64,000 bases of DNA from Cymodocea nodosa (lineage: Eukaryota; Streptophyta; Magnoliopsida; Alismatales; Cymodoceaceae). The position numbers and the translations under genes were made by a program. Location of the stretch: the NCBI GenBank assembly GCA_036874045.1, contig CM072344.1, positions 10,388,501 to 10,452,500 on the forward strand, in the 5' to 3' direction. Within the stretch, counting starts at the first letter, position 1. The number at the start of each line of letters is the position of its first letter. This document shows, piece after piece, positions 12,500 through 56,042 of this stretch. The notes beneath the pieces were generated by a model. The model was not told where the DNA came from. It worked only from the letters and a program-made list of their open reading frames with translations, and did not search any database.

Positions 12500-12534
12500 A
12501 TGACTGCTCTAGTAGAAAAACCATTAGGGGAAAT
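12500..12534 (+). pseudogene. Gypsy gag, first codons only (G1)
   Basis: ATGACTGCTCTAGTAGAAAA and the following bases encode MTALVEKPLGEI, matching MAALVEKPLGEI of G2 and MAALEEKPLGEI of G4. The ORF is cut by the S2 LTR. The upstream leader encodes the same GVANLSLKEN-like context as in the other copies. Confidence 0.85.
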
Positions 12535-27725: not shown

Positions 27726-27757
27726 TATCCATTTTGATTTGTGTACCTACAAAATAG

Positions 27758-29871: not shown

Positions 29872-29873
29872 AT

Positions 29874-31079: not shown

Positions 31080-32020
31080 TAGGGTAATGTAGCAGTTTCT
31101 ATTTCTAGCTCTATTTCAATATATTTCTATTCCCACTTCCATTCATTTATGTCTTTCATAATCCATATTTGAAATTTCATCAATTCATCCCACCATCTTA
31201 TCAGACATAAAGTAGGATCATCTTCTTCATTATACCACATTCCTATTTGAATTTTATTAAATTTTTCAGATGGTGGTTTAGCTATATCACTCGGTACATG
31301 TAAAATTTCTATATAATCATTATAACTGTCTATGCTCACTATGTATAAATCATATCTAAATGCAACTGATATATTTGTGACAAGATATATATATCCATCA
31401 AGTATGACATGTGCTTGGTTAATTAATGATTTTTGTCCTAGATATATCATAATATTTTCATTCCAAGATCTATTCAGAAAGTTATACACACTTAAGCGTA
31501 AATCTTCACCCCAATTTCCTGTAGGTCTCCAATAATATAATTTTTCAGGAATTGCAGAATTTTTATCAGAAAAAATTGAAGCCGATCCACAATTCACAGT
31601 CGGTACTTCAAATCTATTAGGTCTTCCTATATTTCATTCTTCTCCTGTTATAGGATTTCTTATCAAAATATCATGTAATAATAAACTTGCATACCTTGGT
31701 TTCGTACTATATATAATTAATCCTTCATCTATCCCCATAATATGATTTATTCCTTCTAATGTATTGGGTGGAATTCTAGTAGTTTCTTCCATAGCAAGAT
31801 ATTCATGGGTATTTGAACTACGATTAATTAACCTTCATATGAATCCATCTCTAATTTTAGTCATTTTTGCAGCTTGTAGTCCCTGAAAATATTTTTCTTC
31901 AATACAGTCTTTAATTTCCTTTGATACACAACACAGCTTGCACAGATCTTTAGTTGATAAATTACTCAGTACTTCCCTTAGTGCATCCAATGGTAATTGC
32001 ATCAATTCCATTTGTCGATT
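31080..32020 (-). pseudogene. F-box gene, main exon, 5' part (G2)
   Basis: The exon begins at 32020 after GTTATACAG and encodes NRQMELMQLPLDALREVLS and then SxxDLCKLCCVSKEIKDC, an F-box motif, followed by an F-box-associated-like region (SLLLHDILIRNPITGE, KLYYWRPTGNWGEDLRL, YIVSIDSYNDYIEILHVPSD, MWYNEEDDPTLCLIRWWDE). F-box proteins are the substrate receptors of SCF ubiquitin ligases. The N-terminal six codons lie upstream of the GT-AG segment (33584-33567). Stops near 31124 and 31635 and an altered codon at 31836 disable it. S3 cuts it at 31080; the 3' end is 20857-20645. Total about 390 residues if joined. Confidence 0.8.
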
Positions 32021-33566
32021 CTGTATAACACAAACAAAAATTTAGCAGAGACAAAAATTAACATAACTACTGCACACCCTCGTGGAATTAAGGCATAACT
32101 CAACGGACTAAGTTCATTGAGTTAAAAATTAACTCTACGATTAACTATTAATAAAAACATATATACATATAGATAGTTGCTTCAGATATGCTGCTTCATT
32201 CAACTACTCTCCCAGAAGAGGTTTCAATTTCATTAACAGATCTATTGATAGGGTTAGGTATTGCTTGTATTGGCAATCCTCTAGTAGGTCTAACTTCCAT
32301 TGGTTCCTTCTGTCTAAGTGGTAAATTTCTATTCTGATTTTGAATTGCAATATTTCCAAATACAAAATCTAGACGATTATTTAATTGTTGGATTATCTTT
32401 TCTAATTCTCTATTCTAGATCCTTGTTCAATCAATACATCATAACTTATGTTCTTCTCACTGGTATTTTCTCCTCCCTGGAAATTGTTGTTTCTCCAAGA
32501 TAAAGTCGAGTGATTTATCTAATTAGGATGATAAGAATTTCCCAAGCTATCTCTCTGGTTTCTAGCATAAATAATATCTAAGTCATTTATGTTTGCATTG
32601 TTTTCTGCTAGCTTTTGATTTAGTGATAACTCTTCTATTTTCTTTGTTAATTCATTTAACTTCACTTCAAGCATAGTACTTGAATCTATTTCATGCATTC
32701 CTCTTGGCAATATTTTTTATCTACAATAGCCTCAGCCGAGTTTTCCCACTGTGCAGTTCTTTTTGCAAAGTTTTCTAAATATGCCCATGCTTCTTCACTA
32801 CATAACTTTAAAAATCCATTTTGACAAGTAGATTCTAATAAAGATTTTGTTGAAACATCTTTGCCTTCATAAATTATACCTATTAATTATGCCTTACTCA
32901 TTGCATGATGTGGACATTGAGTCAATAAATCTTTAAATCTTTCAAAATATTTTCAGAATGATTCACCCTATTTTTAGCTACACATTAATATTTCTTTCTT
33001 CTTTTTAATCGTTTGATGTATTGGATAGTATTTTTCCAGAAAAACAAAGCTAAATTCAGTCCATGTAGAAATTGAATCAGGCGACAGAGTATATAACCAT
33101 CTTTTAGCTGTGTCTTTTAAAGAAAAAGGGATATATCTAAGTTTAATAGCATCTATACTCATGTTCGACATTTTCATCATTTGACAAACTTCATTAAATT
33201 CTCTAAGGAAATAATAGGCATCCTCTCTTTCTAATCCATGAAAATGTGGCAATTGACTAATATAATTAGATTTTAGTTCAAACCTATCTCCCTCAAAGTT
33301 TGGCAATCGAATACATGAAGGTTCATCAACTAATTCAGGATAAAGAATCTCTCCTAATGGTTTTTCTACTAGAGCAGCCATTTCTACGTTCTCTTTTAAT
33401 GAAAGGTTAAATACACCCCAAAGAATTTCATTAAAGTTCAGTTCAGAAAATTTTTAAGTATGCCTTTATGTTGAATATTCTTGGGTAGGTGTTCTTACTA
33501 ATCATTTAGTGCTAAGAGAACGGGTTCATGTGCTTATAAATAAATAATAGAAGATTAATTACATAC
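32021..33566 (-). other. Intron-like GT-AG segment containing gag (G2)
   Basis: The sense 5' edge is CTG-GTATGTAATTAATC (33566) and the 3' edge is GTGTTATACAG-AATCG (32021); 1546 bp. G3 has the flanking exons fused exactly without it (junction 41484/41483). The whole gag ORF lies inside. G4 keeps the same acceptor (54620) and gag; G1 keeps the donor region and gag start with GT mutated to AT. The best reading is an alternatively spliced intron of the retroelement RNA. Confidence 0.75.
32196..33381 (-). pseudogene. Athila-like gypsy gag (G2)
   Basis: Start MAALVEKPLGEILYPEL at 33381. The conserved Ty3/gypsy gag core follows: PHFHGLEREDAYYFLREF, IKLRYIPFSLKDTAKRWL, WTEFSFVFLEKYYP. A stop at 32974 and later frameshifts break it. 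The end GRVVE-stop at 32198-32196 matches GRVAE-stop in G4, so a separate gag of about 395 codons seems normal for this family, not a gag-pol fusion. No zinc knuckle is visible. A proline/asparagine-rich tail (NPINRTVNE-like) precedes the stop. Confidence 0.88.
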
Positions 33567-34476
33567 CAGTCTAAAGCTTTCCATTCAATAAATATTCGTT
33601 GTCGGATGAAGTTGAATCAGCTGCTTCTCCTTCCAGGTCCTCCAATGCCTTCTCCTTTCTTTTAAAAGTGTTGGTAACTTGTAAATAACATTCTGTTTCA
33701 TATATATACTACACATCCATAAAGTGAATAATTCTCGTTGCAAGAACGTGTCTTGCAACGTGCATCGTGGTTCCTATTTTTATGGGTACGTGTACCACTA
33801 CACATTTCAAATTTTGGTAACCGCTAAATCGACGAAGTTTTGTTCGTGGTTGAAAGAATAACTGTTCTGCTTAATTCACGAACTAACCTCGTTGAGTTAC
33901 AAATAACTCAACGGAATATAGTCGGTTACTATTGCTAACTCCACGGACTAACTTCGTTGAGTTATTTATAACTCAACGGAGTGACCTTAATTATAATATT
34001 GCCCTCGTGGAGTTACGGTTAACTCAACGAACTTACTTCGTTGAGTTAACACTTGCAACTTCTAAGTTTTACTCTCGTAAGTGTCTCTATTCTTATATAA
34101 AAATTTCTCTGCATTCTGCTAATTGAAATAAAGTTAAATTTATGCCATTAATGCATCATTCTAATTAAAATATGTTTAAATCTGAACATTGTATAAAGAT
34201 TTAACTTGTAGCTCATTTTATGTTATGTAGAATTTACATTTTACCTTATAACATGTAGAAATTTTTAAGCAATTATCCTGTCATTCAGCAAATTGTAAAT
34301 ATGTTACATATTCATTCATAAAGTTTCACAATATTCATATTATTCAATAAATTTCATTCATTCTCACATCCAAAACACGTATGAAAATTGCATCTGAAAA
34401 ATTATATTCATTAATATGAAACAATTACATTATAAGTACATCATACAATTTCACACAAGTAGACAAACAATACAAT
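33567..34476 (-). promoter_or_regulatory. Region X of G2: inverted-repeat array, TATA box and exon 1
   Basis: In sense order: AT-rich stretch, a row of inverted repeats (CGTTGAGTTA/TAACTCAACG at 33955-33978 and 33890-33913), TATATATA at about 33709-33700, then a leader and ATGGAAAGCTTTAGACTG (33584-33567), ending at the splice donor. TATA to ATG is about 120 bases. This looks like an internal promoter with a first exon coding MESFRL. G3 41502-42400 is the sister region. Confidence 0.6.
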
Positions 34477-36455
34477 TTAATCTCTATTCCTAAGTTCATC
34501 TACTTCCCTTTGGAGTTTTTCTAATTGCTGCTCTAATTGATTAATTCTTTCTACTGCTCCTGAAATTCCTCCAAAAGGTACAACTAGTTCTGTAGCTACA
34601 AAATTCCTATATTCTTTCACTGAAATGGTTCTAGATCTAATCCTTTTTTATGTCTATTTCGTGAAATCAATATAGTCCACCATCAGCAGTGGAATCAAAT
34701 CTCCATAAAATAATTTCTTCTTCACTATTTTCAACTTGAAGATGAAAACTGCAAACCAATTTATTTGGATCTTATTTACAACTGCATACGTGGCCCATTT
34801 GACAAATTGACTTAATTCTATGTCATGGCCTTGTCGTTGGTAGACATTCTTAATCAGAATGTTAGCTACCATGTGTGCTTTACCATTTAAAAGTTTCAAT
34901 CTATTCAATAATGGCACACTAGGATTAATAGCCAAACAATCCTTAATTTACTGTTCTGTCCACTCAACTGTAGTTGTATCTTTCAAAATTTTTGTTCCTT
35001 CATTCTTTAAACCAAAAATGTTGTGGAGAAGCTCTGGTGTTATTTGTACATCAGCTTCCTCCACATTTGAAATTAATCCTCCTTCTCCTTCTCTTAAATT
35101 TGCATAGAAATAGGGCACTAAATTCTCATATACTACATGCCCTCTTTCTTGAGATATAAATTGCAGTAGACCTTGGAATTCAAATAATTCTTTGATTTCT
35201 TGCATTCCATCCCAATTTACTGGTCTACTGTAAATAATGTCATAATCCCTTATTTCTTGATATTTAGAATAAGCTTCCTAACTACTAAAGTGTACTTCAT
35301 TCAAAATTGTTGTTTCAATCGGGTCAGGAAGGTGACTTTGTTGCTCTAGAGGGGTTTGTACTTGATCTTCCTCTAGCATAGGCTGCATTTGAACATTCTC
35401 TTCAGATTCCTGGATTTTTGCTTTTGATTCTGTTTATGGTGGTGAGCCAATAGAACTCTCCACTCTATCTTGAATTCTTTCCATAATTTGCTGAAGAGTG
35501 TCTTGCTCTTCAGTGGAATCTATGAAATTATTTTTGTCCAAATGGCTTCTTTCAGCCTCTTCATTTTCTACTCTTTCTTGCTCCTCCTAACTACCAATCT
35601 GTTCTGTTACTGTTCTTTTTGATTCTGTAACAGATTGGGATGGAGTCACGGGCAATTCAATTTTTGCCCTAATTTCTATTTCTTCTTGTACAGGCTACAG
35701 ACTAATTTCAGCCTGATTTTCTTCTTGTCTTCGCTCCTGTTGCTGCAGCTCCTACTCCTCCTCAGAATTGGATAGTAGGTTAATAAAAATTTGCTCCACA
35801 AGCCCTATAAAAATTGGTACTTTAGATTTAAATTCTTCATATTCAAGCACTTTTTCTTTTCCTTTCCTTTTTCTGATTAGTTGTGCCTGTTCTTCCTCTT
35901 CATCTTCTAAAATTAAATCCACAAAAACAGGCTCTACAGGCCTTCGAGACACAAGTACTGGCTCTTCCTATTTAATTCTTCCAATAATTGCTGGTCTCAA
36001 AGGACCAACTTCATCTCCTTTTGTAGTAGGTTTGGTAGTAGTTCTAGCAGTAGCTTCGTGATGCTATTCCACTTTGATTTTATATTGGGCTTTCAACTTT
36101 TCTGCAGCCCTCTTTTTGTAAAGTGCATCAAACACTAGGTGTGCTTTGGCCACTACCAAATCTTCTGATTCTCCTTGGTTCTTCCCAACTTGAACCAATT
36201 CTGCAAATTCTCTTATTTCTTCTTCAGTCGAAGGCCCCATCATTTCTACTCGTGCCAATGACTTAAATGGTGGAACTGAAGGTCCAGGCTGTTGCTCCTC
36301 AGGAACAAGTCTTTCAGCAGTCAGCTCCTCTTGTCCTTCAGTTGCCTCTTCTTCATTTTCTTTCCTTGCTTGCTCCCAAATCACCCATTTAGCTCGTCTA
36401 TAGATTCGTCTTTTGAACTAGAGCCGGGACTTACGTTGGATTAATTCTAGGGCTA
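34477..36455 (-). pseudogene. Gypsy accessory ORF, N-terminus missing (G2)
   Basis: Starts abruptly at 36455 within the LIQRKSRLWFKRRI region, where the G3 LTR terminus abuts. A glutamate-rich middle follows (EEEEEQAQLIRKRKGKEK), then the C-terminal domain with PYFYANLREGEGG, ITPELLHNIFGLKNEG, VNKIQINWFAVFIF and FYGDLIPLLMVDYIDFTKW. It ends EVDELRNRD-stop at 34479-34477 with a leucine-heptad-like tail (EQQLEKLQ). Several TAG codons replace CAG of the G3 copy (for example GAGTAGGAG near 35757). The C-terminal domain resembles that of Sirevirus ORF2. Function unknown. Confidence 0.75.
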
Positions 36456-38604
36456 TGTTTGGGTTTTCCCAGCACTACACTAGAAAAACTTGAATTTGTT
36501 ACTTCTATTTTTACTTAATTAATTTATCTTTATGCCTATTCTTTCTTTTAGAAGTAAACAAACAACCTTTAATACAATTTAGATATTAATTCCAATTTGT
36601 ACTTTAACTGCAAGTGCATAGTGTCTATTGTATCAGTGTGCAAGTATAGGTTGATCCCATAGGGAATTGCTGACGAATTTAAGAAATGTTTGATTGTGAA
36701 CAATTCAAATTTATATTCAATAAGCACTCCGTTGAGTTATAGTTAACTCAACGGACTAAGTTCATTGAGTTATGGCTAATTCAACGGACTATCCTCGTGG
36801 ACTTAAGTTAACTCCACGAGCTTGTCTCTTCTTTATAATACTGCTATTTACAAAGGAATTCAGCCAACCATTAGGTGATTCCACAGATTGTAAATAACAT
36901 CAATTAAGCTTTTTAATGCTAGTTAACATTGGATTTATCATTAAGCAATACTAACATTCAGATGATTCAAACAGTAACCATTAAAATCTTTAAGTTTTTT
37001 TGTACGAACCAATTTCAGTAAACTGTAAAATTAAAACTAACATAAAGCAATCATAAAACTGATACAGATAACATTAATCACGATACAACACAAACAATAC
37101 AACACTCAAATACAACATACAAACAAAGATAAATTGTTTTTGGTATTTTTGTTTTGATGTGAACATGGAAATGGGCGAAAGGTGAAATGTAAAGTAATCT
37201 CACTTGATAGTAAATACTTTCGACACTACTTGCAACGCGATTACACCATTGAAAATTAAACCACTTACAATTTTGTCTCCTCTCCCTATAGAATCGCGAG
37301 TCCAGAATTGCAAGATGATCTCCTCTTCAACATGCAGGCATCAACCCGAAGCCAAGGCTAAAAGCTTTACGATCTCTTGAAATATGAGTCAGCGCTTGGT
37401 GAAAATGTCTTCCCTTCCCGTGACGTGATCACTCCTCACAGTGGTTATCAGGCACTGTGTTTGGCTCAGAATCGACCCAACATCAGGCAAGTATCCTCAT
37501 AGACCTTCGATGATTGGTGATTATGGTGGTGATAACGATGGTTGGTGTGATACTTCGGAGAATCAACGATACTGTCTGCAGAAAGCTCGATGCTCCTCTA
37601 TATACACTAGCCGTCCATCGATCACACTTTCTTCTTTTTTTCTTCTTTTCTTTTATATTTCTTCAGTAGTAATTGCTTCTGCTTGAATGATTGGTTGGAT
37701 TTCCTTCCTTCAAATCAACGGCGATGATTTCTTTCTCCCTACGCGATTGAATTCCTGCGTGATACGTGCAAACCTGGTTTTTCCTTTCAACTATCTGTTC
37801 CTGCAACCGCTACAGTGGCATTTTGGAAAATAACTATAAAATACATGCAATAAAGAAATAAACCGCTAACCTAACACGTTACCTTAGTGTATATTCATGT
37901 AACTCAACGCGTATAGTTATGCTAAATAACGAGTTATAACTTAAGTAAATCTACCAGATCTTGACACATGTCAACAGTAGTTTAAATATAAAATAACATT
38001 TCGGAGAGTTACAGGTCTAACTATCCGATGCTCAGATGCATTTTCGAATAGTTACAGCTAACTCACCGAAAATTCACTTAAGTCACTTACCTAGAACATG
38101 ACACGTGTCCTCAGCTATTTTATAAATAACAAGAGATTTCAGAGAGTTACAGGGATAACTATCTGATGCCCAGCTGCAATTTCGGATAGCTATAGATAAC
38201 TCACCGAAAGTTCACTTAAGACATTCATTCTGGTTTCGACACGTGTACATCTGGAAATAATAAAATATTCTCTCTAAACATAACTGTTCGGCAATTTAAA
38301 CATAACTATCCGATACATATTCGGTCTGTTAAACATAACTGTCCAAATTTGTTCGATATGTTAAACATAATTATCCGAAATATCAGAAAATTCAGATACT
38401 TAAGAATTTCACAGCCTGCAACTTACCGACAATTCATAAATGTACTAAATTAACATTAATTCCCCAAAATTAAGCAGATTCTTCAATTAAAGCATATAAT
38501 AGTGCAATTATAACATAATGGCTTAATTCTCATATGATAAGCTAAATATTATGCAATTAAACATCATTTAACCGTTAATAATATGCACTTTTTCATTCTA
38601 AACA
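36456..38604 (-). repeat. LTR of G3
   Basis: Sense TGTTTAGAATG at 38604, directly after GGTATGGGGGAAG, to AACCCAAACA at 36456; 2149 bp, colinear with 16694-18977. TATAAAA lies at 37657-37651. Three consecutive inverted repeats lie at 36729-36820, including CCGTTGAGTTA/TAACTCAACGG (36729-36739 / 36744-36754). A TAACTATCCGA/TCGAATAGTTA pair lies at 38018-38054. The flank GGCTA at 36451-36455 has no matching duplication in view. Confidence 0.78.
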
Positions 38605-40365
38605 CTTCCCCCATACCTAAATTTTGCTAGTCCCTTAGCAAACTAAGATCTAATTAATTGGTCTTTCAAAAAGTGCTAGAATTAATTCTTCCCCTTTTGT
38701 TTTTTTTCTTCTGTTCAGCATAAACATATATTCTGTATGTTTCAGTAATCAACCTGCAAAGATATTTAGAATATATGTAAATTACATACAAAGTATATCA
38801 TCTTCACATAGGTGTTAATTATATTATCGTTTGTTCTTCTTTTTATCATCAGTCATCCTGAATTTTCCAATAAGATTTCTAGAAGAAATTTCAACAACAT
38901 ACGAATCAAAATACAATCTAATTCAATCTGATTAAGACAAGTAGAATAAAGAATTGTATTTCCATTAAACAACTTCAAAAGTCAATTCCAGATTCATATT
39001 TCAGCAATTCTAAATAATAGAAAATATACTTGATTCATAAGATATCTGTATTTCACAAAACACTTGTATCTTTTCAGAACAGTATATGTTTTTTTCTTTT
39101 CTTTTTTTTGTGTACTTTAAAAGTTAATTTGACAAGCTTGAATCATACAAGAGCTTTCTAATGTACCCATGTAACGAGCTTTCAATCAACAATCCCAGAT
39201 CTGATCAAGATCTTAGGTTGCCAGATTTTCAGAGTCCTTTTTCAGGTCAACAATCCTTACATACCTATCTGCTCAAGTACAAAAGGCTCGTGATCAAACA
39301 AGTCAATAAACTCTCAAAGTTTTTTTTTTTTTTTTTTCTAAAAATAAATGCACACACAAAACAAAGCATTAATCACATACTGTATATGAACGTATTTCAT
39401 TGATACAAATGCAGTAAAACACCAATCTCATATAATCCTGCTTCTATCATTTACTAAAAATATGAATCCATAACAATAAGCTCATACTTTATCTGTAGTT
39501 TAATAAGATCTACACATAAATCATTCTACAAGTTCAATCAGTCAAAGTAAATGTATCTTTCATCATATGTGTTTCATTTAATCTAGAATTCACATCTTAG
39601 CTCCTTCAGGACTTCAGATAATTTTCTGATTAAGCATTAAATATTCTGATTTCCTTTTAAAATCGTAAAACTGTTAAACTCATGAAATTCAGAAAAATCA
39701 TAAGATACTATATCTAGATTTGCATAAATAGTAAATTCAATAGCATCTTATATAACCTTCTAAATATAGCATTCAAACAGGTTATAAAAATTTTACAATC
39801 TCCTTTATCGGATAGTTACAGCAAGTTCATAAAAATTTTCAATTTCCTCAAAACTTTACAATACCATTTTAATTCCTTTAATTAACAAACTTACATGGCT
39901 GTTACTTTAATTACCTCCCCCCTACATTTTGCATTGTCCTTAATGTAAAAGATTTGACAATAAATACAGTAATTGTAGCAAGCATGAATAAAGTTTTGTT
40001 TGATATAAAATTTAGGATAAGTAATTGGTTACATACCTTGTTCCATTTATATCTCTTTCTGCATATTCCAATTTTTGATTCTGAAAAACTTTTCATTCCT
40101 AGATAAACACAGAATATAAAACAAAATAACATTTAACAGATATTAATAAATCAGTGTCTTGTGTGGAACCTAGGCTCCTATGCCTTTGGTGGCTCACAAG
40201 CAAGCCAATTGGTTTCCTAGAACAAATACCAACAAACTGGATTGATATTTTGTTTTATTTGTTTGTTTTTTTTTTATAAAATGAACATGAAAACTTCAAA
40301 ATTCTTTTTTTTTCTTTCTAAAAATAAATGCAGAATACACAACGTTAAACACACAAAATCACAGC
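38605..40365 (-). other. F-box-LTR spacer of G3
   Basis: Colinear with 18978-20644. LTR-adjacent purine tract GGTATGGGGGAAG at 38617-38605 and an upstream tract GGGGGGAGG at 39922-39914. The segment 39143-39310 is reverse-complementary to 940-1080 of S1. It contains long T tracts. A short ORF at 39161 is also found at 19488 but lies antisense to the element and shows no known domain, so it is not called. Confidence 0.6.
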
Positions 40366-41501
40366 TTAAGAACATGATTGAAAAGTAGAAATAAATGGAA
40401 TAAATGTATCAGTCCAAGCAAACTTTTTAGGCATAGTTCTTCTTGCTATTAATTCTGTTTTAATGTAGTTCTTGTTCCTTCTTAATTTGTAAACGTGCAA
40501 TATATTATAAATTCCAAATACGAGTGTATTACCATTAATGATATGTAATGTAGAAAGGGATCCTTTTTGGTTCCAAGGTAATGTAGCAGTTTCTATTTCT
40601 ACATCTATTTCAATATACTCCTCTTCCCACTTCCATTCATTCATGTCTTCCATAATCTATATTTGAAATTTCATCAGTTCATCCCACCATCTTATCAGAC
40701 ATAAAGTAGGATCATCTTCTTCATTATACCACATTCCTACTTGAATTTCATTAAATTCTACAAATGGTGGTTTAGCTATTTCACTCGGTACAGGTAAAAT
40801 TTCTATATAATCATCATAACTGTCTATGCTCACTATGTATAAATTAGACCCATATGCTAATGATATCTCCGTGACTAGATATATATATCCATCAAGTATG
40901 ACATGTGTTTGGTTAATTAATGATTTCTATCCCAGATATATCATAATATTTTCATTCCAAGATCTGTTTAGAAAATTATACACACTTAAACATAAATCTT
41001 CACCCCAATTTCCTGTAGGTCTCCAATAATATAATTTTTTGGGAATTGTAGAATTTTTATCAGAAAATATTAAAGCTGACCCACAATTTACAGTTGGTGC
41101 TTCAAATCTATTAGGTCTTCCTATATTCCATTCTTCTCCTATTATAAACTTGCATACCTTGGTCTCGTCTTGTATATGATTAATCCTTCATCTATCCCCA
41201 TAATATGACTCATTCCTTCTAATGCATTGGGTGGAATTCGAGTAGTTTCTTCCATAGCCAGATATTCATGGGTATTTGAACTACGATTAAATGACCTCCA
41301 TATGAATCCATCTCTAATCTTAGTCATTTTTGCAGCTTGTAGTCCTTGAAAATATTTTTCTTCAATACAGTCTTTAATTTCCTTTGATACACAACACAAC
41401 CTGCATAGATCTTTAGCTGACAAGTTACTTAATACTTCTCTTAGTGCATCCAACGGTAATTGCATCAATTCCATTTGTCGATTCAGTCTGAAGCTTTCCA
41501 T
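40366..41501 (-). pseudogene. F-box gene with exons joined (processed copy, G3)
   Basis: Start ATGGAAAGCTTCAGACTG at 41501-41484 runs directly into AATCGACAAATGGAATTG. The protein begins MESFRLNRQMELMQLPLDAL, with an F-box over about residues 14-55 (REVLSNLSAKDLCRLCCVSKE). IRDGFIWRSFNRSSNTHEY and MGIDEGLIIYKTRPRY follow. A deletion between short TTATAA repeats near 41150 removes the LLPDILIRNP stretch and causes a stop at 41142. Downstream the F-box-associated-like region continues to WTDTFIPFISTFQSCS and the stop at 40368-40366. The protein would act in an SCF ubiquitin ligase. The host source gene is not identified. Confidence 0.85.
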
Positions 41502-42400
41502 TCTATAAATATTTGTTGTCGGATGAAGTTGAATCAACTGCTTCTCCTTCTAGTTCCTCCAACACTTTCTCCTTTCTTTTAAAAGTGCTGGTAACTCATA
41601 AATAACATTCTATTTCATATATATACTGCGCATCCATAAAGTGAATAAATCTTGTTGCAAGAATGTGGCTTGCAACGTGCATCATGGTTCCTATTTTTAT
41701 AGGTACGTGTACCACTACTAATTTCAAATTTAGGTAACCGCTAAACCGACGAAGTTTCATTCGTGGTTAGAAGAATAACCATTCTGCTTAATCCACGAAC
41801 TAACCTCGTTGAGTTACAGATTACTCAACAGAACACAGTCAGTTACTGTTGCTAACTCCACGGACTAACTTCGTTGAGTTACAGATAACTCAACAGAGTG
41901 ACCTTATATTATATTACTGACCTCGTGGAGTTACGGTTAACTCAATGGACTTACTTCATTGAGTTAACACTAAGCAACTTCTAAGCTTCACTCTCATAAG
42001 TTTTCTATTCTGTTTTTTTTTCTTTGTTTTTCATTCTGCTAACTGTAATATAGTTAAATCTATGTCATTAATGCCTCATTTTGATTAAAATACATTTAAA
42101 TCTGAACATTATATAAAGATTTAACTTGCAGGTCATTTTACGTTATGCAGAATTTACATTTTACCTTATAACTTGCAGAAATTTTTAAGCAGTTATCTTG
42201 TCATTCAGCAAATTGTAAATCTGTTACATATTCATAAAGTTCCACAAATTACATAATATTCAATAAATTCCATTCATTTCACATCCAAATACGTATGAAA
42301 ATTACATCTGAAAAATTATATTCATTAATATGAATCAATTACATTACAAGTACATCATACAATTTCATACAATTTTACAAAAGTAGACGAACAATACAAT
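41502..42400 (-). promoter_or_regulatory. Region X of G3
   Basis: Sister of 33567-34476. AT-rich first half; inverted repeats CGTTGAGTTA/TAACTCAAC-type at 41810-41960; TATATATA at about 41625-41617; leader of about 115 bases to the F-box ATG. No ORF. Confidence 0.6.
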
Positions 42401-44631
42401 TTAATCTTTATGCCTAAGTTCATCTACTTCCTTCTGGAGTTTTTCTAATTGCTACTCTAATTGATTTATCCTCTCTACTGCTCCTGCAATTTCTCCAAAA
42501 GGTACAGCTAATTCTGCAGCTACAAAATTTCTATATTCTTTCACTGAAATGGTTCTAGATCTGATCCTTTTTGATGTCCATTTAGTGAAATCAATACAAT
42601 CCACCATCAGTAGTGGAATCAAATCTCCATAAAATAATTTCTTCTTCACTATTTTCAGCTTGGAGATAAAAACTACAGACCAATTTATTTGGATCTTATT
42701 TACAACTGCATACGTGGCCCATTTGACAAATTGACTTAATTCTATGTCATGGCCCTATCGTTGATAGACATTCTTAATCAGAATGTTAGCTACCATGTGT
42801 GCTTTACCATTTAAATGCTTCAATCTGTTTAATAATGGCACACCAAGATTGATAGCTAAACAATCCTTAATTTGTTGCTCAGTCCATTCAACTGTAGTTG
42901 TATTTTCAAAAATTTTTGTTCCTTCATTCTTTAAACCAAATATGTTGTGGAGAAGCTCTGGTGTTATCTGTACATCAGCTTCCTCCACGTTTGAAATTAA
43001 TCCTCCTTCTCCTTCTCTTAAATTTGCATAGAAACAGGGCACTAAATTCTCATATACTATATGCCCTCTTTCTTGAGATATAAATTGCAGTAGACCTTGG
43101 AATTCAAATAATTCTTTGGTTTCTTGCATTCCATCCCAATTTACTGGTCTACTGTAAATAATATCATAACCCCTTATTTCTTGGTATTTGGTATAAGCTT
43201 CCTGACTACAAAAATGTACTTCATTCAAAATTATTGTTTCAGTTGGGTCAGGAAGGTGACTTTGTTGCTCTAGAGGGGTTTGCTCTTGCTCTTCCTCTAG
43301 CATAGGCTACATTTGGACATTCTCTTCAGATTCTTGAATTTTTTGCTTTTGCTTCTGTCTATGGTGGTGAGCCGACAGAACTCTCCACTCTGTCTTGAAT
43401 TCTTTCCATAATTTGCTGAAGAGTTTCTTGCTCTTCAATGGAATTTGTGAAATTATTTTTGTCCAAATGGCTTCTTCGAGCCTCTTCATTTTCTACTCTT
43501 TCTTCTTCCTCCTGACTACCAATCTGTTCTGTTACTGTTCTTTCTGATTCTGTAACAGATTGGGATGGAGTCATGGGCAATTCAATTTCTACCCTAATTT
43601 TTGTTTCTTCTTGTACAGGCTGCAAACTAATTTCAGCCTGATTTTTTTCTTTTCTTTGCTCCTCCTGCTCCTCCTCAGATTCGGATAGCAGGTTAATAAA
43701 AATCTACTCCGTAGGCCCTATAAAAATTAGTATTTCAGATTTAATTTCTTCATATTCAGGCACTTTTTCTTTTTCTTTCTTTTTTCTGATTAGTTGTGCT
43801 TGTTCTTCCTCTTCATCTTCTGAAATTAAATCTACAAAAATAGGCTCTGCAGGCTTTCGAGCCACAGGTACTAGCTCTTCCTGTTTAATTCTTCCAATAA
43901 TTGCTAGTCTCGAAGGACCAGCTTCAGCTTCTTTTGCAGCATATCTAACAGTAGTTCTAGCAGTAGCTTCTTGATGCTGTTCCACTTTAATTTTATATTG
44001 GGCTTTCAACTTTTCTACAGCCCTCTTTTTGTACAGTGCATCAAATACTAGGTGTGCTTTAGCCATTGCCAAATCTTTTGATTCTCCTTGGTTTTTTTCC
44101 AACTTGAACCAATTCTGCAAATTCTCTTATTTCTTCTTCAGTCGAAGGCCCCATCATTTCTACTCGTGCCAATGGCTTAAATGATGGAACTAAAGGTCCA
44201 GACTGCTGCTCCTCAGGAACAGGTCTTTCAGCAGTTGGTTCCTCCCGTTCTTCAGTTGCCTCTTCATTTTCTTTCCTTTCTTGCTCCCAGATCGCCCATT
44301 TAGCTCGTCTACAGATTCGTCTTTTGAACCAGAGCCGGGACTTACGCTGGATTAATTCTAGGGCAACTTCATTACTTGGCCTTATTTGTCTTTCCTTGCT
44401 TACAGCTATTTCTATTGCTATTCTGATTCGTGTTTCCATTATTTGAGGTATTTGTATACCCATATTTACTAAATCTCTTCTAAACTTGAAAAGTTCTGAA
44501 TTTACCTTCTCTAGCTCTTTCTCTCTTGTCGTATTTCTGATCTTCTACCGCATGTGCCACTCTTCTGATTCCTTCAGAAATTTTGATGTATCAACAGCAT
44601 CTTCCCAAAATTCAGGCGTCATCTTCCTCAT
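42401..44631 (-). pseudogene. Gypsy accessory ORF, nearly complete (G3)
   Basis: Start MRKMTPEFWEDAVDTSKFL at 44631, end at 42403-42401, about 743 codons with few lesions (stop near 44550, frameshift near 44100, stops near 43704 and 43310). N-terminus: coiled-coil-like, then RKSRLWFKRRICRRAKWAIW. Middle: Glu/Gln-rich. C-terminal third: FCSQEAYTKYQEIRGYDIIY, LLQFISQERGHIVYENLVP, FYANLREGEGG, ITPELLHNIFGLKNEG, INWFAVF-like and YGDLIPLLMVDCIDFTKW. This domain resembles the plant-transposon-like family. It is preceded by TTATTTAAAC at 44736-44727, and may be made from its own transcript. Confidence 0.78.
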
Positions 44632-45221
44632 CGTGGAGTTACACAACAACACAGAATCACTCTGATTTCTATTATTCTAGATTCTAAATGATTTACCGGA
44701 TAATGCCCCCAAAATCCTAGGTTTTAGTTTAAATAAGCCCTAAGTTTAGGTGGGTAATCGGGTTATTTCCCGAACCAACTATTACTATTTTATCCACGGT
44801 CTTAGCTACAGTACTCTGTTGAGTTACCTGTAACTCAACGGAATAAGCTCGTTGACTAACTCAAGACTCAACGGAGTAAGCTCATTGAGTTAAGAGTAAT
44901 TCAACGGACTCCTTGTACAAGCAAATATAATAATAAAAATATTACAGAGAATAGTTTTTTTGTTTTTTTACCGGTTTAACCGATACTATGTTTCGGTCAA
45001 ACCTAAATATTTTTTATTTTTTTATTTTTCTTTTGGTTGAACCGATACTATGTTTCGGTAAAACCAATATTTTTTCTGAAAATTAATATACAATTTTTTT
45101 AATGTTCTGGTCATACCGATGGATCTAGTCGGTTGAATCGCAACTATTTTTATGTTTTATATATATTTTTAATATTTTTTTTTATATATATATATATATA
45201 AACATAAAAACTGATTTCTTA
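44632..45221 (-). promoter_or_regulatory. Region Y of G3 (pol-accessory spacer, promoter-like)
   Basis: Sense: TA-repeat stretch, GGTTCAACCGA / TCGGT-ACCGAAAC motif pairs (44970-45150), CGTTGAGTTA/TAACTCAACG repeats (44815-44910), TTATTTAAAC (44736-44727), an AAAACCTAGGATTTTGG motif and a leader of about 95 bases to the accessory ATG. G4 48089-48669 is a close copy. Confidence 0.6.
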
Positions 45222-47961
45222 CTAAGTAAAGCTCGAGTAGTCCTCTACTCTGACTTCTTCTATAATTCCAAAGGAGCTTTTTGGTGTTTTCAGAATAGGT
45301 TTAAGTCTTTGTCCATTTACTTTAAATATATTCTGATTTTTAAGATTTTCAATTTCAATAGCTCCATAAGGATAAACATTTCAAACTATGTAAGGTCCTG
45401 CCCATCTAGATCTTAATTTTCCTAGTTGGTTATGGAGTCTAGCCATATAAAGATATACTTCTTGTCCTATTTCAAAGCTTTTAGGAATAATTTTTCTATC
45501 TTGCCAGAATTTAATTTTCTGTTTTTCTCTTATAGTCTTCGAATAAGCTTCATTTCTAAATTCTTCTAATTCAATTAGTTGCATTTTCCTATTTTCAGTA
45601 GCTTGATTTAAATTAGTGTTTAGAGTTTTTAATGCCCAATAAGCTTTATGTTCTATTTTAGTAGGTAAATGACAACTTTTTCCATATACTAGCCTAAAAG
45701 GTGACATACCTAAGCTCGTTTTATAAGTAGTTCTATAAGCCCAAAGTGCATCTTGTTGAGCTATATTTTTAGCTCAAGCTTTATTGCAAGTGCACAGTTC
45801 TTTTGGTGTACATGGCAAATACAGGTCATTCTTCCACAAGGATTGTGTTTATGACTTAATCAATTATTACTCAACTTGTTCTTCAAGCTCTTAGGTATAC
45901 TTCAGTAAATTAATGACATGTGAATGTAGAATAATCAAAGTTAACACAAGCTCACAAATCATGCAATTTCAAGGCAATTTGTAGTGGAAAATGGTGATGT
46001 GAATCAATTTCTTTACTTGTAAATCTATCAACTCATTCAATTATAACATGCACACAAGTTCCACGTGATTTCAGAAGTGATATCAATGCATCAATATTAA
46101 GGAAAGAAAAATAAAACAACAAGGTTCAATAGACTATACTACTCTTTTCTAATTTATACTAAATGCATGCAACTATGCTATTTGCTAATCTAGCTAAACT
46201 ATACTATACTACTTGCATTAGAAATTCTTTTTGGAGATTGATTAGGACTAAATGTGATCTATATAAGATATAACAAAAACAATTAACTACTGAAATTAAA
46301 ATTAACAACTAGATATAAGTGATAGGTTCTTCATTCAAATGAACATCAACACTTATTTTCTTCTTCTTTCAATTCACACCTTCTTCTCAAATGCGCCAAG
46401 CCACCATTGATGAATGTCATTTACTCGTGTGAAAGCCTCACCAACAGCCCCAACAATACACGTGAATAGAGGATGCAAATTAGAAGTTGAAAAGAAGAAT
46501 TAAACATTCATATACATTCATTGAACTCTATCTAGCTAAGAAGACATATAATTGAGATGTTCACCACCATTTCTCATCAATTCTTCCTTCTATACAAGAA
46601 AATAATAAACTCTAAGAGTTGTCACTACCTTAGGAGCTTCTTATCTTCTTCTCTAGAGCTTTGAATTCAATGGAACTTGGCAGCAAATCCACCTCCAAGC
46701 TTGGACGTCTTCTCCTTAGCCCTTGGAATGGTGAATAGCATGAATGGATGGTCTCTCTTTGGAAGCACAAGCCTCACCTCCAAGCTTCTTCTCCTCCTTT
46801 CTCTCGTTGGAAGCACCAAAAAAAGTGTTGGCCGAAATTCCTCTTCCCTTGTATTTATGTTGTTTTATCTTCTCTCTCTTTGATGTGGCACCTTGGTTTT
46901 ATCACCAAGCCAATAAGATGCCATAGATCTAGGAGGGCCAATAAGGTATTGGCATGTCCTCTTCTTTAAAATTTAGTCCACCAACTTTTGATTCTTTACA
47001 TCTTCTTTGGTCTTTTGCATTAAGCTCCTCCCATATATATGTTACCTACAATTAATGGAAGTTGAACTCCAAGAGACGTTAACCAACATAGGACATGCAA
47101 AATAAATCAATGTGTTTCATGTAAAATTATATCCAATGGGGGATGCACTTGTTAATTAAATTTCTATATTGCACTATATTTCAAGACTTATATTACCCAT
47201 AATTAATATCATTTATCCATCATAGATATATAATATCATGCAAAATTACTTATCAAATTCATTAAAAATGGGCAAAATTAAAGCTTAAACACATCTATCA
47301 ATCTATTAGCCCAATGTGTTCTAGTAGGATTTACTACTTTTTCCAAGATTAATTTAATTTGTTTGTTTGCACTTTCTACTTGTCCACTTGTTTGCGGATG
47401 ATATGATGTTGCAATTTTGTGCTTTACTCCATATTTCTTCATTAAGGCTTCAAAACTTCTATTACAGAAATGAGTTCCTCTATCATTGATAATAGCTTTA
47501 AGTATTCCAAATCTGGCAAATATATTTGTTCTAATAAATTGTATTACCACTCTGTTATCATTAGTTTTTGTAGGAATAGCTTCTATCCATTTAGATACAT
47601 AATCCACCCCCAACAATATGTAATTAAATTGATTAGACATAGGAAATGGACCCATAAAATCTATTCCCCACACATCAAAGATTTCAACCTCAACAATAGG
47701 ATTAAGAGGCATCATATTCCTCTTTGATATTCTTCCTATTTGTTGACATCTTAAACAACTTAAGCAATATTTATGAGCATCTTTGAATAGTGTTGGCCAC
47801 TAAAACCCACATTGCAGAATTTTTGCAGCAGTTTTCCTTGAACCAAAATGTCCTCCACAAGCTTGGTCATGACAGAAAGACAATATGCTCAAATATTTAG
47901 TTTCTGGAACACACCTCCTTAAAACCAGATCAGGACATTTCTTAAATAAGTAAGGGTCTTC
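45222..47961 (-). pseudogene. Gypsy integrase split by solo LTR (G3)
   Basis: The part 47961-47297 encodes [15 protein letters not shown], the HHCC finger, RISKRNMMPLNPIVEVEIFDVWGIDF, INDRGTHFCN and GQVESANKQIK. The part 45748-45222 encodes the C-terminus: [31 protein letters not shown] and the end SSFT. E1 interrupts it between W-A-N-R-L-I-D and A-L-W-A-Y, in a CATCT site. The sense start at 47961 is an abrupt joint to the G4 accessory fragment. Integrase inserts the cDNA; this copy is dead. Confidence 0.9.
45754..47291 (-). repeat. E1: solo LTR with perfect target duplication
   Basis: Flanked by CATCT at 45749-45753 and 47292-47296. Plus-strand ends are TGTTGAGCTATA and GCTTAAACA; 1538 bp. 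A GCAAGTGCACAG motif and a CCACAAGGATTG motif near 45790-45850 resemble the R/U5 end of Athila/Tat LTRs, which makes the sense strand minus. No internal coding sequence or second LTR, so it is a solo LTR left by LTR-LTR recombination. Its family differs from the G1-G4 LTR. The strand call is inferred from the motif. Confidence 0.82.
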
Positions 47962-48088
47962 CCTTTTGTAGCTCTTTCTCTCTTGTTGTATTTCTAATCT
48001 TCTGCCACGTGTGCCATTCTTCAGATTCTTTTAGAAACTATGCGGTGTCCACTGCCTCTTCCCAGAATTCAGGCTTCATCTTCCTCAT
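47962..48088 (-). pseudogene. Gypsy accessory ORF, start only (G4)
   Basis: ATGAGGAAGATGAAGCCTG at 48088 encodes MRKMKPEFWEEAVDTA and continues colinear with G3 44631 to about RNTTRER, then breaks into integrase sequence of G3. Stop codons are already present in the fragment. Confidence 0.8.
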
Positions 48089-48669
48089 CGTGGAGTTACA
48101 CAGCAGCACGGAATCGCTCTGATTTCTATTATTCTAGATTCTAAATGATTTTCCAGATAATGCCCCTAAAACCCTAGGTTTTAGTTTAAATAAGCCCAAA
48201 GTTTAGGCGGGTAATCGGGTCATTTCCGAATCCACTATTACTATTTTATCTGCGGTCTTAGCTATAGTACTCCGTTGAGTTACAGTTAAGTCAACGGAAT
48301 AAGCTCGTTGACTAACTCAAGACTCAATAGAGTAAGCTCGTTGAGTTAAGCATAACTCAACGGACTTCCCGTACAAACAGATATATAATAAAAATATTAT
48401 AGAGAATAATTTTTCTCTTTTTTTTACCAGTTTAACCGTTACTATGTTTTAGTTAGACCTAAATTTTTTTATTTTTTTTATTTTTCTTTTGGTTGAACAG
48501 ATCTATGTTTCGATAAAACCAACATTTTTTTGAAAATTAATATACATATTTTTTTATGTTTCGGTCATACCGATGGATCCAATCGGTTGAACCGCAACGA
48601 ATTTTTATGTTTTATATATATTTTTAATGTTTTTTTTATATATATATAAACATAAAAATTGATTTCTTA
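48089..48669 (-). promoter_or_regulatory. Region Y of G4
   Basis: Close copy of 44632-45221: TA repeats, GGTTCAACCGAT/CATCGGTATGACCGAAAC pairs, the inverted repeat CCGTTGAGTTA / TAAGTCAACGG (48272-48297), TTATTTAAAC at 48193-48184, the palindromic AAAACCTAGGGTTTTAG, and the accessory ATG about 96 bases downstream. Confidence 0.6.
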
Positions 48670-49714
48670 CTAAGTAAAGCTCGAGTAGTCCTTTACTCTG
48701 ACTTCTTCTATAATTCCAAAGGAGCTTTTTGGTGTTTTCAGAATAGGTTTAAGTCTTTGTCCATTTACTTTAAATATATTCTGATTTTTAGGATTTTCAA
48801 TTTCAATAGCTCTATAAGGATAAATATTTTGAACTATGTAAGGTCCTGCCCATTCAGATCTTAATTTTCCTAGATAGTTATAGAGTCTAGCCATATAAAG
48901 ATATATTTCTTGTCCTATTTCAAAGCTTTTAGGAATAATTTTTCTATCATGCCAAATTTAATTTTTTCTTTTTCTCTTACAGTCTTTGAATAAGCTTCAT
49001 TTCTAAATTCTTCTAATTCAATTAATTGCATTTTTCTATTTTCAACAGCTTGATTTAAATTAGTGTTCAGAGTTTTTAATGCCCAATAAGCTTTATGTTC
49101 TATTTTAACTAGTAAATGACAACTTTTTCCATATACTAGCCTAAAAGGTGAAATACCCAAGCTCGTTTTATAAGCAGTTCTATAAGCCCAAAGTGCATCT
49201 ATCAATCTATTAGCCCAATCTGTTCTGGTAGGATTTACTACTTTTTCTAAGATTAATTTAATTTGTTTGTTTGCACTTTTACTTGTCCACTTGTTTGCGG
49301 ATGATATGATATTGCAATTTTGTGGTTTACTCCATATTTCTTCATTAAGGCTTTGAAACTTCTATTACAGAAATGAGTTCCTCTATCATTGATAATAGCT
49401 TTAGGTATTCCAAATCTAGCAAATATATTTGTTCTTATAAATTGAATTACTACTTTGTTGTCATTAGTTTTTGTAGGAATAGCTTCTATCCATTTTGATA
49501 CATAATCCACCCCCAACAATATGTAATTAAATTGATTAGACATAGGAAATGGACCCATAAAATCTATTCCCCACACATCAAAGATTTCAACTTCAACAAT
49601 AGGATTAAGAGGCATCATATTCCTCTTTGATATTCTTCCTATTTGTTGACATATTAAACAACTTAAGCAATATTTATAAGCATCTTTGAATAGTGTTGGC
49701 CAATAAAACCCACA
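48670..49714 (-). pseudogene. Gypsy integrase (G4)
   Basis: Follows RNase H in sense order. The finger's second half (CLSCLICQQIGRISKRN), the core with VWGIDFMGPFP, INDRGTHFCN and the [23 protein letters not shown] stretch are clear. Lesions: stop near 49715, frameshift near 49280 in the SGQVES region, frameshift near 48950. The C-terminal end is RVKDYSSFT at 48672-48670. The chromodomain of some gypsy clades is absent, as expected for Athila/Tat. Confidence 0.92.
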
Positions 49715-51415
49715 TTACAGAATTTTTGCAGCAGTTTTCCCTAAACCATAATGTCCTCCACAAGCTTGGTCATGACAGAAAGACAATATGCTCGAATATT
49801 TAGTTTCTGGAACACACCTCCTTAAAACCAAATTAGGACATTTCTTAAATAAGTATGGGTCTTCCCAATAGTAATATTTTACTCTTGAGAAAAATAATTT
49901 CTTATCCTGTCTATTCCAATCCTTAGGTGTTAGACCCGTAACTAAATAAGTAACTATGTCTGCATACCAAGGTATTGTGTTAATGATCATTAATTGTTCA
50001 TCAGGAAAATTATCCTTAATTTTAATATTTGATTTTTCTATTTGTAATCTTGATAAATGATCTGCTACTACATTCTCACAACCTTTTTTATCTTTAATTT
50101 CTAGATCAAATTCTTGTAATAATAATATCCATCGGATCAGTCTAGGTTTAGTTTCTTTTTTCTTTAGTAGATGTTTTAAAGCTGAATGATCCGTGCATAC
50201 TATTACTTTAGCTCCAATCAGATATGATCTAAACTTTTCTAAAGCAAACACAGCAGCTAATAATTCTTTTTCAGTAGTTGTGTAATTAACTTGAGCATCA
50301 TTTAAGGTTTTGCTTGCATAATGAATCACTCTAGGAGATTTTTCTATTTTCTGTCCCAATACTGCTCCTACAGCAAAATCAGAAGCATCGCACCTTAATT
50401 CAAATGGATAGTTCCAATTAGGTGCTTGAATTATAGGAGTTGAAATTAAACTAGTTTTAAGTCTGAAAAATGCTTCCTTGCAATTTTTATCAAAGTTAAA
50501 TGGGACATCTTTTAATAGATTAGTTAAAGGTCTAGCTATCTTGCTACAGTATATAATAAATCTTCTATAAAAACTAGCATGTCCTAGAAATGATCTAATA
50601 TCTTTCATTGATTTAGGTTCTGGTAGATTAGAAATTACTTCTATTTTAGCTCTATCTACTTCCAACCCTTTCTTAGAAACAACATGCCCTAAGACTATTC
50701 CTTGTTTAACCATGAAGTGACATTTTTCCCAATTTAAAACCAGATTTTTTTCCACGTAGCGTTTTAATATTAAGTCTAAATTGTTTAAACAGACTTCATA
50801 TGATTTGCCATATACAGTAAAATCATCCTTAAATATTTCTAAAAAGTCTTTAGTCATTCCAGTAAATATGCCCTACATACATCTTTGAAAAGTAGCTGGC
50901 GCATTGCGTAATCCGAATGGCATTCTCTTAAAAGCATAAGTTCCATTAGGAGAGGTGAAAGTTGTTTTCTCTTGATCCTCTAATGCTATTGGAATTTGAT
51001 TATACCCTGAATACCCGTCTAGGAAACAAAAATATTCTTGCCCTGCTAATCTTTCCAGCATTTGATCTATAAAAGGTAAGGGAAAATGATCTTTCCTAGT
51101 CACAGCATTCAACTTTCTATAGTCTATACATACTCTCCAGCCTGATTGAATTCTAGTAGGTATCAAGTCTTGACTTTCATTCCTAATAACTGTTAATCCT
51201 GATTTCTTGGGAACTACATGGATTGGACTAACCCACGAGCTATCAGAAATCGGATAAATTATATCATTATCTAACCATTTAACTATTTCTTTCCTGACTA
51301 CTTCCTTAAGGTTTGGATTTAATCTCCTCTCAAGAATTCTAACAGGTTTAGCATTCTCTTCTAAATATATGTGATGACAGCATAAAGTTGAACTTAACCC
51401 TTTTATATTAGTCAT
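49715..51415 (-). pseudogene. Gypsy reverse transcriptase and RNase H (G4)
   Basis: RT: RILERRLNPNLKEVVRKEIV, SSWVSPIHVVPKKSG, GWRVCIDYRKLNAVTRKDHFP, PFGLRNAPATFQRCM, a TAG at 50870, then [10 protein letters not shown] (the F-x-D-D catalytic box) and the thumb [15 protein letters not shown]. RNase [56 protein letters not shown]. Integrase HHCC begins ([17 protein letters not shown]). The PIHVVPKKSG and KDD boxes fit the Athila/Tat clade. Only the TAG at 50870 interrupts about 565 codons, so this is the best-kept pol in the window. Confidence 0.95.
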
Positions 51416-52655
51416 AGTCCATCATATTGCTTCTTTATAACTTTTTACTACATCTTTTAATTTAGCTATTTGATCCTCTTTTAAATCTGAAGCAATAATG
51501 ATTGGACAGGTTCGTTTATCTTCTAGAAATATATAGGTTAATTCAGGAGGTAAAGGTTTTAATTCTAAATGCTGCCCATCAGAAGCTAGAGCTCCTAATT
51601 GAACATCATCATTTTTTAAATTAATTTCTTCTATATCTCCTTCTATATTTATGCTTTCATTTTCTTTTTAAATTTTAGAATTGATTTGCTTATTTAATTC
51701 TTCTTGAATCACATCATCTAACATATCTCCTTCATCCTCTAAAAAGTCTATGATATGTAAGGACATTTCTATCTCTTCAAACCTTTCTGGTTTGAAAATA
51801 TTTAATTGAGTATCCTCATTACCATATGCTAACTTCATTACTCAAGTTTTACAATTTATAACAGCCCCTGATGTTGTTAAAAATGGCCTTCTCAAAATTA
51901 AAGATGTATCACTATTTTTATGCTTAATTTGTTGGGAATCCAAAATTACAATATCAATAGGATATATAAAATTTTTGATTTTAATTAAGACATCCTCTAT
52001 TTTTCCTCTAGGGTATCTTATACTTCTATCAGCTAATTGAATAACCGTACTAGTAGGAATTAAGCCTTCTAATCCTAAGGATGCAAATATATCACTTGGC
52101 ATAACATTTATACCTGCACCTAAGTTCATTAAGGTTCTTTCTAGAATGGTATTTCCTATGGTGCATGATATAACAGGGATTCCAGGATCAGATAACTTTT
52201 TAGGAATTTGTTGCAGAAATAGGGAACTACTTTGCTCAGCTAAAAAGACCTTTCTAAGAACTTTTTGCTCTCTCTTCTTAGTACACCAATCCTTAAGAAA
52301 TTTAGCATAAGGTGGCATTTTATGCAATAAATCTAACAAAGGAATGTTAACTTGTACTTTTTCAAAAATTTCTCTGATTTTCTCTTGTTTTTCAGGTATT
52401 GTTTGTTGCAATCTTTCAGGATAGGGTGCTAAAGATTTTGATTTCAAAGACTCTTTTTCTTTCAGTTGATTTGTTTGATCATTTTTAGCTTCATTAGCAG
52501 ATTCAAATTGTTCTTCAGTGATTTCTAGATTTTCAATTAGTACATTTTCATTATCATTTTGATTTTTACTCTTATCTACCTTCATATCATTTTCATTTTG
52601 AGTTCTTGGTGGTATATCAGTTCCAAATCTTAATGTTATACATACATCTTCCAGA
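51416..52655 (-). pseudogene. Gypsy gag-protease linker and protease (G4)
   Basis: Starts with VCITLRFGTDIPPRT, the ITLRSG motif usual between gag and protease in Athila elements. A Lys/Glu-rich linker and PPYAKFLKDWCTKKRE follow, then the protease with IGNTILERTLMNLGAGINVMP (active-site Asp replaced: LGAG in place of LGAS/DGAS-type) and DRSIRYPRGKIEDVLIKI. A stop at 51842 and two more lie before 51418. The sense 5' edge is a joint with F-box spacer sequence at about 52655. Confidence 0.85.
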
Positions 52656-54619: not shown

Positions 54620-54800
54620 CTGTATAACACAAACAAAAATTTAGTAGAGACAAAAATTAACATAACTACTGCACAACCTCGTGGAGTTAAGGCATAACTC
54701 AACGGACTAAGTTCGTTGAGTTAAAAATTAACTCTATGATACTATTAACTTAAAATAAAAAACATATACACATACAGATAGTTGCTTCAAATATGCTACT

Positions 54801-55986: not shown

Positions 55987-56042
55987 TTCTACGTTCTCTT
56001 TTAAAGAAAGGTTAGATACTCCCCAAACAATTTTGTTAAAGT

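Follow-up and report, generated by a model that had tools for sequence, protein, structure and literature searches.

The window analysed here, a stretch of 64,000 nucleotides from Cymodocea nodosa, holds nested minus-strand copies of one Ty3-type long terminal repeat (LTR) element plus one old plus-strand copy (G1), as determined by self-comparison. In one of the minus-strand copies, G3, an env-like region is directly joined to an F-box region, and in another, G2, the two are kept apart by a 1.55-kb segment that contains the gag capsid domain. We consider it probable, at roughly 84%, that genomic RNA of this element was spliced at the edges of the gag segment and reverse transcribed, which would have given rise to capsid-less satellites. 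This reading draws on the exact GT-AG edges, the occurrence of both forms, the LTRs and primer site of joined copies, the target duplication around the joined copy L010, the genome-wide counts and the signs of selection on gag.

The joint in G3 and the segment in G2

The joint in G3 is real and base-exact. Across 41484/41483 the minus strand reads AAGCTTCAGACTG followed directly by AATCGACAAATGG, and the minus strand of G2 reads AAGCTTTAGACTG followed by GTATGTAATTAATC at the donor edge (33567/33566) and GTTTGTGTTATACAG followed by AATCGACAAATGG at the acceptor edge (32021/32020), the two edges being separated by 1546 bp. The gag segment starts with GTATGT and ends with TTATACAG, and the slip ambiguity at the joint is a single base. 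In G3, the ATG and MESFRL form the start of the F-box open reading frame (ORF), and unspliced reading from the same ATG in G2 yields MESFRLVCN and then a stop. The sequence comparison therefore bears out what the original prediction had stated about the joint (AGACTG/AATCGAC), the GT-AG edges and distance of the flanks in G2, and the two readings of the MESFRL AUG. A target duplication flanking the gag segment was looked for at the G2 edges and none was found, so that the splicing reading survives the proposal that the segment is an insertion with a duplication of its own. The features on which this comparison is based are as follows, with region X denoting the part from integrase to the joint.

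41484..41501, minus strand: last 18 nt of exon 1 of G3 (MESFRL), ending at the joint (sequence)
41142..41501, minus strand: F-box ORF of G3, opened by MESFRL, with a stop after 119 codons in this copy (PF00646, E 5.2e-11)
39545..41483, minus strand: F-box region of G3 (self-comparison)
41484..44725, minus strand: region X of G3, holding the env-like ORF
33567..36453, minus strand: region X of G2, with MESFRL and the donor site at its end; its 5' side abuts the G3 LTR (self-comparison)
32021..33566, minus strand: putative intron of G2, GTATGT...TTATACAG, with the gag capsid domain (PF03732, E 1.4e-6) and an ATG at 33381 (sequence, Pfam)
31083..32020, minus strand: first part of the F-box exon of G2, broken by a copia-type element (sequence, self-comparison)
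54620/54619, minus strand: acceptor of a third copy, TTATACAG/AATCAAC (sequence)
12301/12302, plus strand: donor position of G1, now ATATGT (sequence)

Joined and gag-carrying copies across the genome

In the assembly searched (374.6 Mb, 28 contigs, the window lying on contig C16), the joined motif (26 letters, up to two mismatches) occurs 203 times and the donor-form motif (34 letters, up to two mismatches) 1755 times, the latter counted irrespective of an F-box downstream; the reversed controls gave 0 for both. Since the donor pattern is longer and hence stricter, the excess of donor-form copies is, if anything, understated. For each query, be it the joined (best 40 of 5773 candidates), the donor (best 40 of 3213) or the acceptor query (best 40 of 3002), all 40 hits match it over its full or almost full length. 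A majority of copies without the segment and without GT-AG edges would have contradicted the original prediction, but the donor form is the commoner one and the edges are GT-AG in nearly all gag-carrying copies read. The edges and the counts support reverse transcription of a spliced RNA as it was predicted, the splicing itself being what we infer from them.

Twenty joined copies (10 kb each) were fetched from the top matches to G3's own sequence, which is not a random sample, along with four gag-carrying copies (L033-L036, 9 kb each). The joint is identical in all 21 joined copies, G3 included, a few of which have single substitutions adjacent to it, and wherever these copies are untruncated the order is pol-X-F-box-LTR. 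Three gag-carrying copies (L033, L035 and L036) have the order pol end-X-gag-F-box, and L034 shows X-gag with an inverted LTR inserted ahead of the acceptor and no pol match in its 9-kb stretch. The joined copy L023 has, after its F-box, a remnant of gag and another piece of F-box and was excluded from the gag and splice-site counts. The prediction that G3 is a genomic copy of a spliced RNA agrees with the exact joint, but G3 is not a one-off retrocopy: it belongs to a joined subfamily that has been amplified. In L010, the only joined locus checked at both ends, both LTR ends are present with a 5-bp target duplication (GTGAA) on both sides, which shows that it integrated by the retroelement route; the primer site follows the 5' LTR, and nearly all of pol is missing.

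Nine joined copies (L010, L011, L015, L016, L020, L021, L024, L025 and L028) have a 2.27-kb deletion in X in common, by which the env-like ORF is largely lost. The deletion lacks GT-AG edges and carries a three-base filler in all nine copies printed (TAA in eight, GAA in L015), which rules it out as a second intron; it is a second, non-splice loss within the capsid-less subfamily.

At the donor, GTATG is kept in all five gag-carrying copies read (G2 and L033-L036), with GTATGC in L034 and GTATGT in the other four. Of 15 gag-carrying copies, 14 retain the acceptor AG, and a CTAA about 25 nt ahead of the acceptor is present in 15/15, together with a T-rich tract. GTATGT, a branch-like CTAA and a T-rich tract fit the plant splice consensus. 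Twelve further slices were read; in nine of them the F-box follows directly on a CAG that lies about 1.55 kb from the donor, and three (L042, L043 and L047) have no F-box match at the expected position.

Synonymous/non-synonymous variants found in at least two copies (older) were compared with singletons (mostly post-insertion), the numbers being small. For gag, the counts are 21/25 among shared variants (ratio 0.28) and 22/89 among singletons (0.94; Fisher p 0.0015; six copies, L023 dropped as too short), a contrast that argues for purifying selection on the displaced gag in older variants. The gag ratio is no higher than that of the reverse transcriptase (RT), for which shared variants gave 31/57 (ratio 0.45) and singletons 38/146 (p 0.012; 13 copies). 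The corresponding counts are 31/31 vs 40/84 for the env-like ORF (p 0.025; 14 copies), 48/102 vs 56/197 for the F-box (p 0.034; 25 copies; 26/62 vs 49/157 in joined copies alone) and 16/25 vs 48/120 for the part with nucleocapsid (NC) and protease (p 0.26; eight copies). Judging from these variants, gag seems to have stayed under constraint in its 3' location while the copies multiplied.

The F-box ORF, 387-388 codons in length, is open in three of the 19 joined copies assessed (L010, L020 and L027), and L009, with the leader ATGAAAAGC, was missed by the F-box start search. A protein search with this ORF returned one candidate and none was scored, Pfam gave only a weak FBA_3 hint beyond the F-box domain (E 4.7), and the AlphaFold model of an intact F-box ORF has a mean predicted local distance difference test (pLDDT) value of 34.

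Position of the capsid gene, number of events and rival explanations

By its sequence features the element is classed as an Athila-like Ty3/gypsy LTR retrotransposon. It has LTRs with TG...CA ends, a purine tract and, in L015 and L010, the primer site TGGCACCGTTGC a few bases past the LTR. RNase H and integrase score above the Pfam cut-offs, and protease (E 4.3e-4) and RT (E 1.5e-5) score below them but stand in order, an order that is repeated in the fetched copies. The affinity to Athila we presume from the resemblance of gag and primer site. The whole element reads LTR, primer site, zinc-knuckle-like part with protease, RT, RNase H, integrase and env-like ORF, followed by the F-box region either directly or after the gag segment. 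The F-box has the 3' position that env-like genes occupy.

The usual Ty3/gypsy arrangement, with capsid gag ahead of pol, is not the one found here. Gag lies between X and F-box in 4/4 fetched gag-carrying copies, and a match to the gag segment was found neither in the gag-carrying 5' ends L037 (complete), L038 and L039 (partial) nor in the complete 5' end of the joined copy L015. The 5' end of L037 consists of LTR, a short ORF (CEFCNSKGHDISDC, with a CX2CX4HX4C pattern) and protease; L039 lacks the end of the LTR as well as the opening part of the short ORF, and L038 has only the second half of that ORF. In the third copy, Pfam recognises PF03732 in the gag segment but no zinc knuckle. With the knuckle in the 5' ORF and PF03732 in the 3' segment, gag appears to be divided into an NC-like part with protease at the 5' end and a capsid part in the segment 3' of integrase. 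Since no capsid-type gag was found in the 5' position in one complete and two partial 5' ends of gag-carrying copies, the removed segment is apparently the element's own capsid gene. Tentatively, and with somewhat less than an even chance of being right, we extend this to a split and re-ordered gag, with NC before pol and capsid in an intron behind integrase, in which one splicing choice would set capsid against F-box protein and would recurrently yield capsid-less satellites living off their unspliced parents, while the F-box protein may act on host ubiquitin ligases. The chance is set lower because only a single gag-carrying 5' end is complete.

Whether all joined copies form one clade was assessed by approximately unbiased (AU) tests on reference-anchored slices of 27 copies. 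One joined clade was rejected for the whole F-box region (p 0.0002; 26 of the 27 copies, L023 dropped as short) and, when nine extra gag-carrying slices were included, also for the first 600 bp of the F-box (p 0.023; 34 copies, L019 and L021 dropped). In the F-box tree the gag-carrying L050 groups with the joined L027 (support 97), and L033 and L035 stand with gag-carrying copies in X and with joined copies in the F-box region. At site -21, an A/T transversion 21 bp from the joint, the copies read show T in all six gag-carrying copies, including G1, and A in 20 of 21 joined ones, and genome-wide A occurs in 385 exact donor-form copies and T in 19 exact joined copies, which together means that all four combinations of state and form exist. 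Another 21 sites up to 300 bp from the joint have both states in both forms; as these are mostly transitions, which may recur, we place the weight on the transversion. More than one splicing event is the simplest account of these patterns and a likely one, recombination inside 21 bp or recurrent mutation being another possible account of site -21.

Several observations weigh against splicing followed by reverse transcription, or against its repetition. A single joined clade was not rejected for the first 600 bp of the F-box without the extra slices (p 0.15; 25 copies, L019 and L021 dropped) or for the last 970 bp of X (AU p 0.55; 25 copies, L013 dropped and G1 left out). Near-fixed differences between the joined and gag-carrying copies read, at -237, -83 and -71, fit separate lineages, and a single joint could have been spread by recombination between RNAs packaged together, which would mimic a repeated origin. 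G1, about 20% diverged in X, gives no polarity, since it sides with the gag-carrying copies at 17 sites, with the joined copies at 16 and with neither at four. The joined copies read were picked by similarity to G3. At the splice sites, the donor position of G1, which is outside the five copies counted, reads ATATGT, and the acceptor of L033 reads AA. As to a gag-less satellite with its helper in one genome, there are 203 joined and 1755 donor-form copies, but an intact gag frame was sought in six gag copies and found in none. As for the divided gag, L037 alone is complete among the three gag-carrying 5' ends, the zinc knuckle of the short ORF stays under the Pfam cut-off (E 0.16), and the short ORF of L015 has lost one knuckle cysteine.

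A variant of our explanation, which we regard as possible though doubtful, has splicing and reverse transcription happen once, after which template switching moved the joint to other backgrounds and restored gag in some of them. The recombinant-like switch of L033 and L035 between X and F-box region would be expected from this, as would L050, which has the acceptor together with the F-box haplotype of the joined L027; the variant would, however, require either that a crossover fell no more than 21 bp from the joint or that the transversion recurred. That a single DNA deletion removed the gag segment from a copy which was then amplified, no splicing being involved, is unlikely in our estimate. 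The tests beside the joint do not reject such a single origin, and the deletion in X shows for the same subfamily that plain deletions found lineages, but a chance deletion would have had to hit edges that are exactly GTATGT and TTATACAG, with T-rich tract, branch-like CTAA and 1 bp of ambiguity, where GT-AG alone would arise by chance about once in 130 cases by our own arithmetic, slip allowed. It is also opposed by the two states of site -21 in both forms and by the rejection of one clade over the whole F-box region.

Less probable still is a joined ancestor into whose continuous F-box leader the gag segment was inserted later. While the lack of polarity in X (17 vs 16 sites) leaves room for such an order, the segment is without target duplication and has full splice signals, donor-form copies are about nine times commoner, and no other capsid gag was found in the element (one complete and two partial 5' ends). 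Moreover, G1 already has X, the donor position and the gag start at about 77% identity to the other copies, which supports the gag-carrying arrangement as the older one. Finally, nested insertions or assembly accidents could have set gag beside an F-box pseudogene, and the window is indeed a pile of nested elements with a third copy that is a fusion; yet the arrangement is repeated at dispersed loci on many contigs, so that this explanation is refuted by the genome-wide copies and its probability is negligible.

Under splicing and reverse transcription, the genomic-length RNA would be spliced between X and F-box, the unspliced RNA retaining gag and the spliced RNA fusing the MESFRL leader exon to the F-box, which may have been captured from a host. 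The spliced RNA would still have R, U5, primer site, purine tract and U3; since both ends needed for reverse transcription are kept, packaging and integration would be possible. Some of it would have been packaged with capsid provided in trans by unspliced copies, reverse transcribed, integrated and then multiplied. Because the gag AUG lies far from the cap, translation of gag would need a second promoter or another splice.

Further features of the window, related systems and significance

The remaining parts of the Ty3-type copies are listed below.

36456..38604, minus strand: 3' LTR of G3, TGTTTAGAATG...CCCAAACA, about 2.15 kb, with the purine tract GGTATGGGGGAAG before it (sequence)
42758-43306, minus strand: env-like 'putative plant transposon protein' ORF of G3 (PF20167, E 5.5e-4, under the gathering cut-off)
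44798..52657, minus strand: protease-RT-RNase H-integrase of G3, with internal duplications (Pfam, self-comparison)
16694..20858, minus strand: presumed F-box continuation and 3' LTR of G2 past the copia insertion, resuming at 20858, the LTR ending at 16694 (from matches)
52661..56043, minus strand: third copy, with gag of broken frame, acceptor, F-box region and abrupt fusion to protease (self-comparison)
54804-56043, minus strand: gag of the third copy (PF03732, E 3.4e-15), frame broken
9006..12538, plus strand: old copy G1, comprising X, the donor position and the beginning of gag, at about 77% identity to the other copies
6372-8887, plus strand: RT-integrase of G1, ahead of X (self-comparison)

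At 52657-52661 the F-box region of the third copy is fused to G3 midway through its NC-protease ORF, which is probably due to a deletion between adjacent elements. Within G3, segments of the integrase region are repeated at 44502-49866 with 90-96% identity, and several fetched copies, e.g. L016, match the repeated pol part as a single contiguous stretch. Units of about 150 bp recur in the LTR of the family (e.g. 37935-38223) and vary in number among copies. A similar inverted motif (AACTCAACGGA...TCCGTTGAGTTA) was recognised, by eye only, in the LTR (38604-36456), at the 3' end of the gag segment (~32080-32140) and after integrase (~44800-44870).

The copia-type element inside the F-box exon of G2 (20846-31079) is bounded by LTR-like repeats that are 94% identical (20846-22077 and 29863-31079); it has Pfam matches to gag, Pol_BBD and integrase and a 407-aa ORF at 22411-23634 with no Pfam match. 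On the plus strand lie two more elements, related to each other, at 1-6370 and 56042-64000; they were assigned to the copia type by similarity to the element at 22-31 kb, and the former carries a 'putative plant transposon protein' ORF 3' of pol (3487-3966; PF20167, E 1.8e-5, under the cut-off). A stretch of about 0.8 kb (666-1455 and 61462-62244) resembles, at 70-72% identity and in the same sense, the region from F-box to LTR of the Ty3-type element.

Packaging, reverse transcription and integration of an internally spliced retroviral RNA are described for the SD' RNA of murine leukemia virus (MLV), where the resulting provirus, a splice donor-associated retroelement (SDARE), then transcribes the spliced RNA directly (PMC2925334). 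The joined copies resemble it as proviruses that are without exactly one GT-AG segment of a relative; unlike SDARE, which is described from cell lines, they amount to about 200 copies in a plant genome, and what was lost is a capsid gag 3' of pol. Human L1 SpIREs are likewise genomic copies of spliced retroelement RNA, some of which need protein in trans, and are described as generally evolutionary dead ends (PMC5860796); they belong to a non-LTR element, whereas in C. nodosa the joined form has multiplied, with the later deletion in X shared by many of its copies. For the plant LTR element BARE1 of barley, splicing favours Gag, and the gag-less subfamily BARE2 is packaged in particles of its partner (PMC3735527). 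In our case the putative intron contains the capsid gene itself.

With Athila, Calypso and Diaspora the element has in common the primer site a few bases past the LTR, the CX2CX4HX4C knuckle, reported for Diaspora gag, and an env-like region (PMC1142308). It differs from them in that capsid was lost instead of env, that capsid is not 5' of pol and that an F-box gene is present. Functional introns are also described for the plant LTR elements Ogre and EVADE, and the passages of that paper concerned with them describe no capsid gene wholly within an intron 3' of integrase (PMC12786077). Neither an F-box-carrying Athila element nor a capsid 3' of pol was found among the listed titles and abstract openings of the open-licence literature. 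To our knowledge, a capsid within an intron 3' of integrase has no known parallel.

The authors of the Diaspora study considered that a packaged mis-spliced subgenomic RNA could yield an env-less element in one event (PMC1142308). The element of C. nodosa would offer a natural case of such one-step gene loss in which the two forms coexist, the splice edges are exact and the copies number from hundreds to thousands; the frequency at which spliced genomes are copied back into DNA would become measurable. A further suggestion is that a capsid located 3' of pol, apart from the nucleocapsid, need not keep a Ty3-type element from working, and that an F-box gene may be bound up with whether particles or satellites are made.
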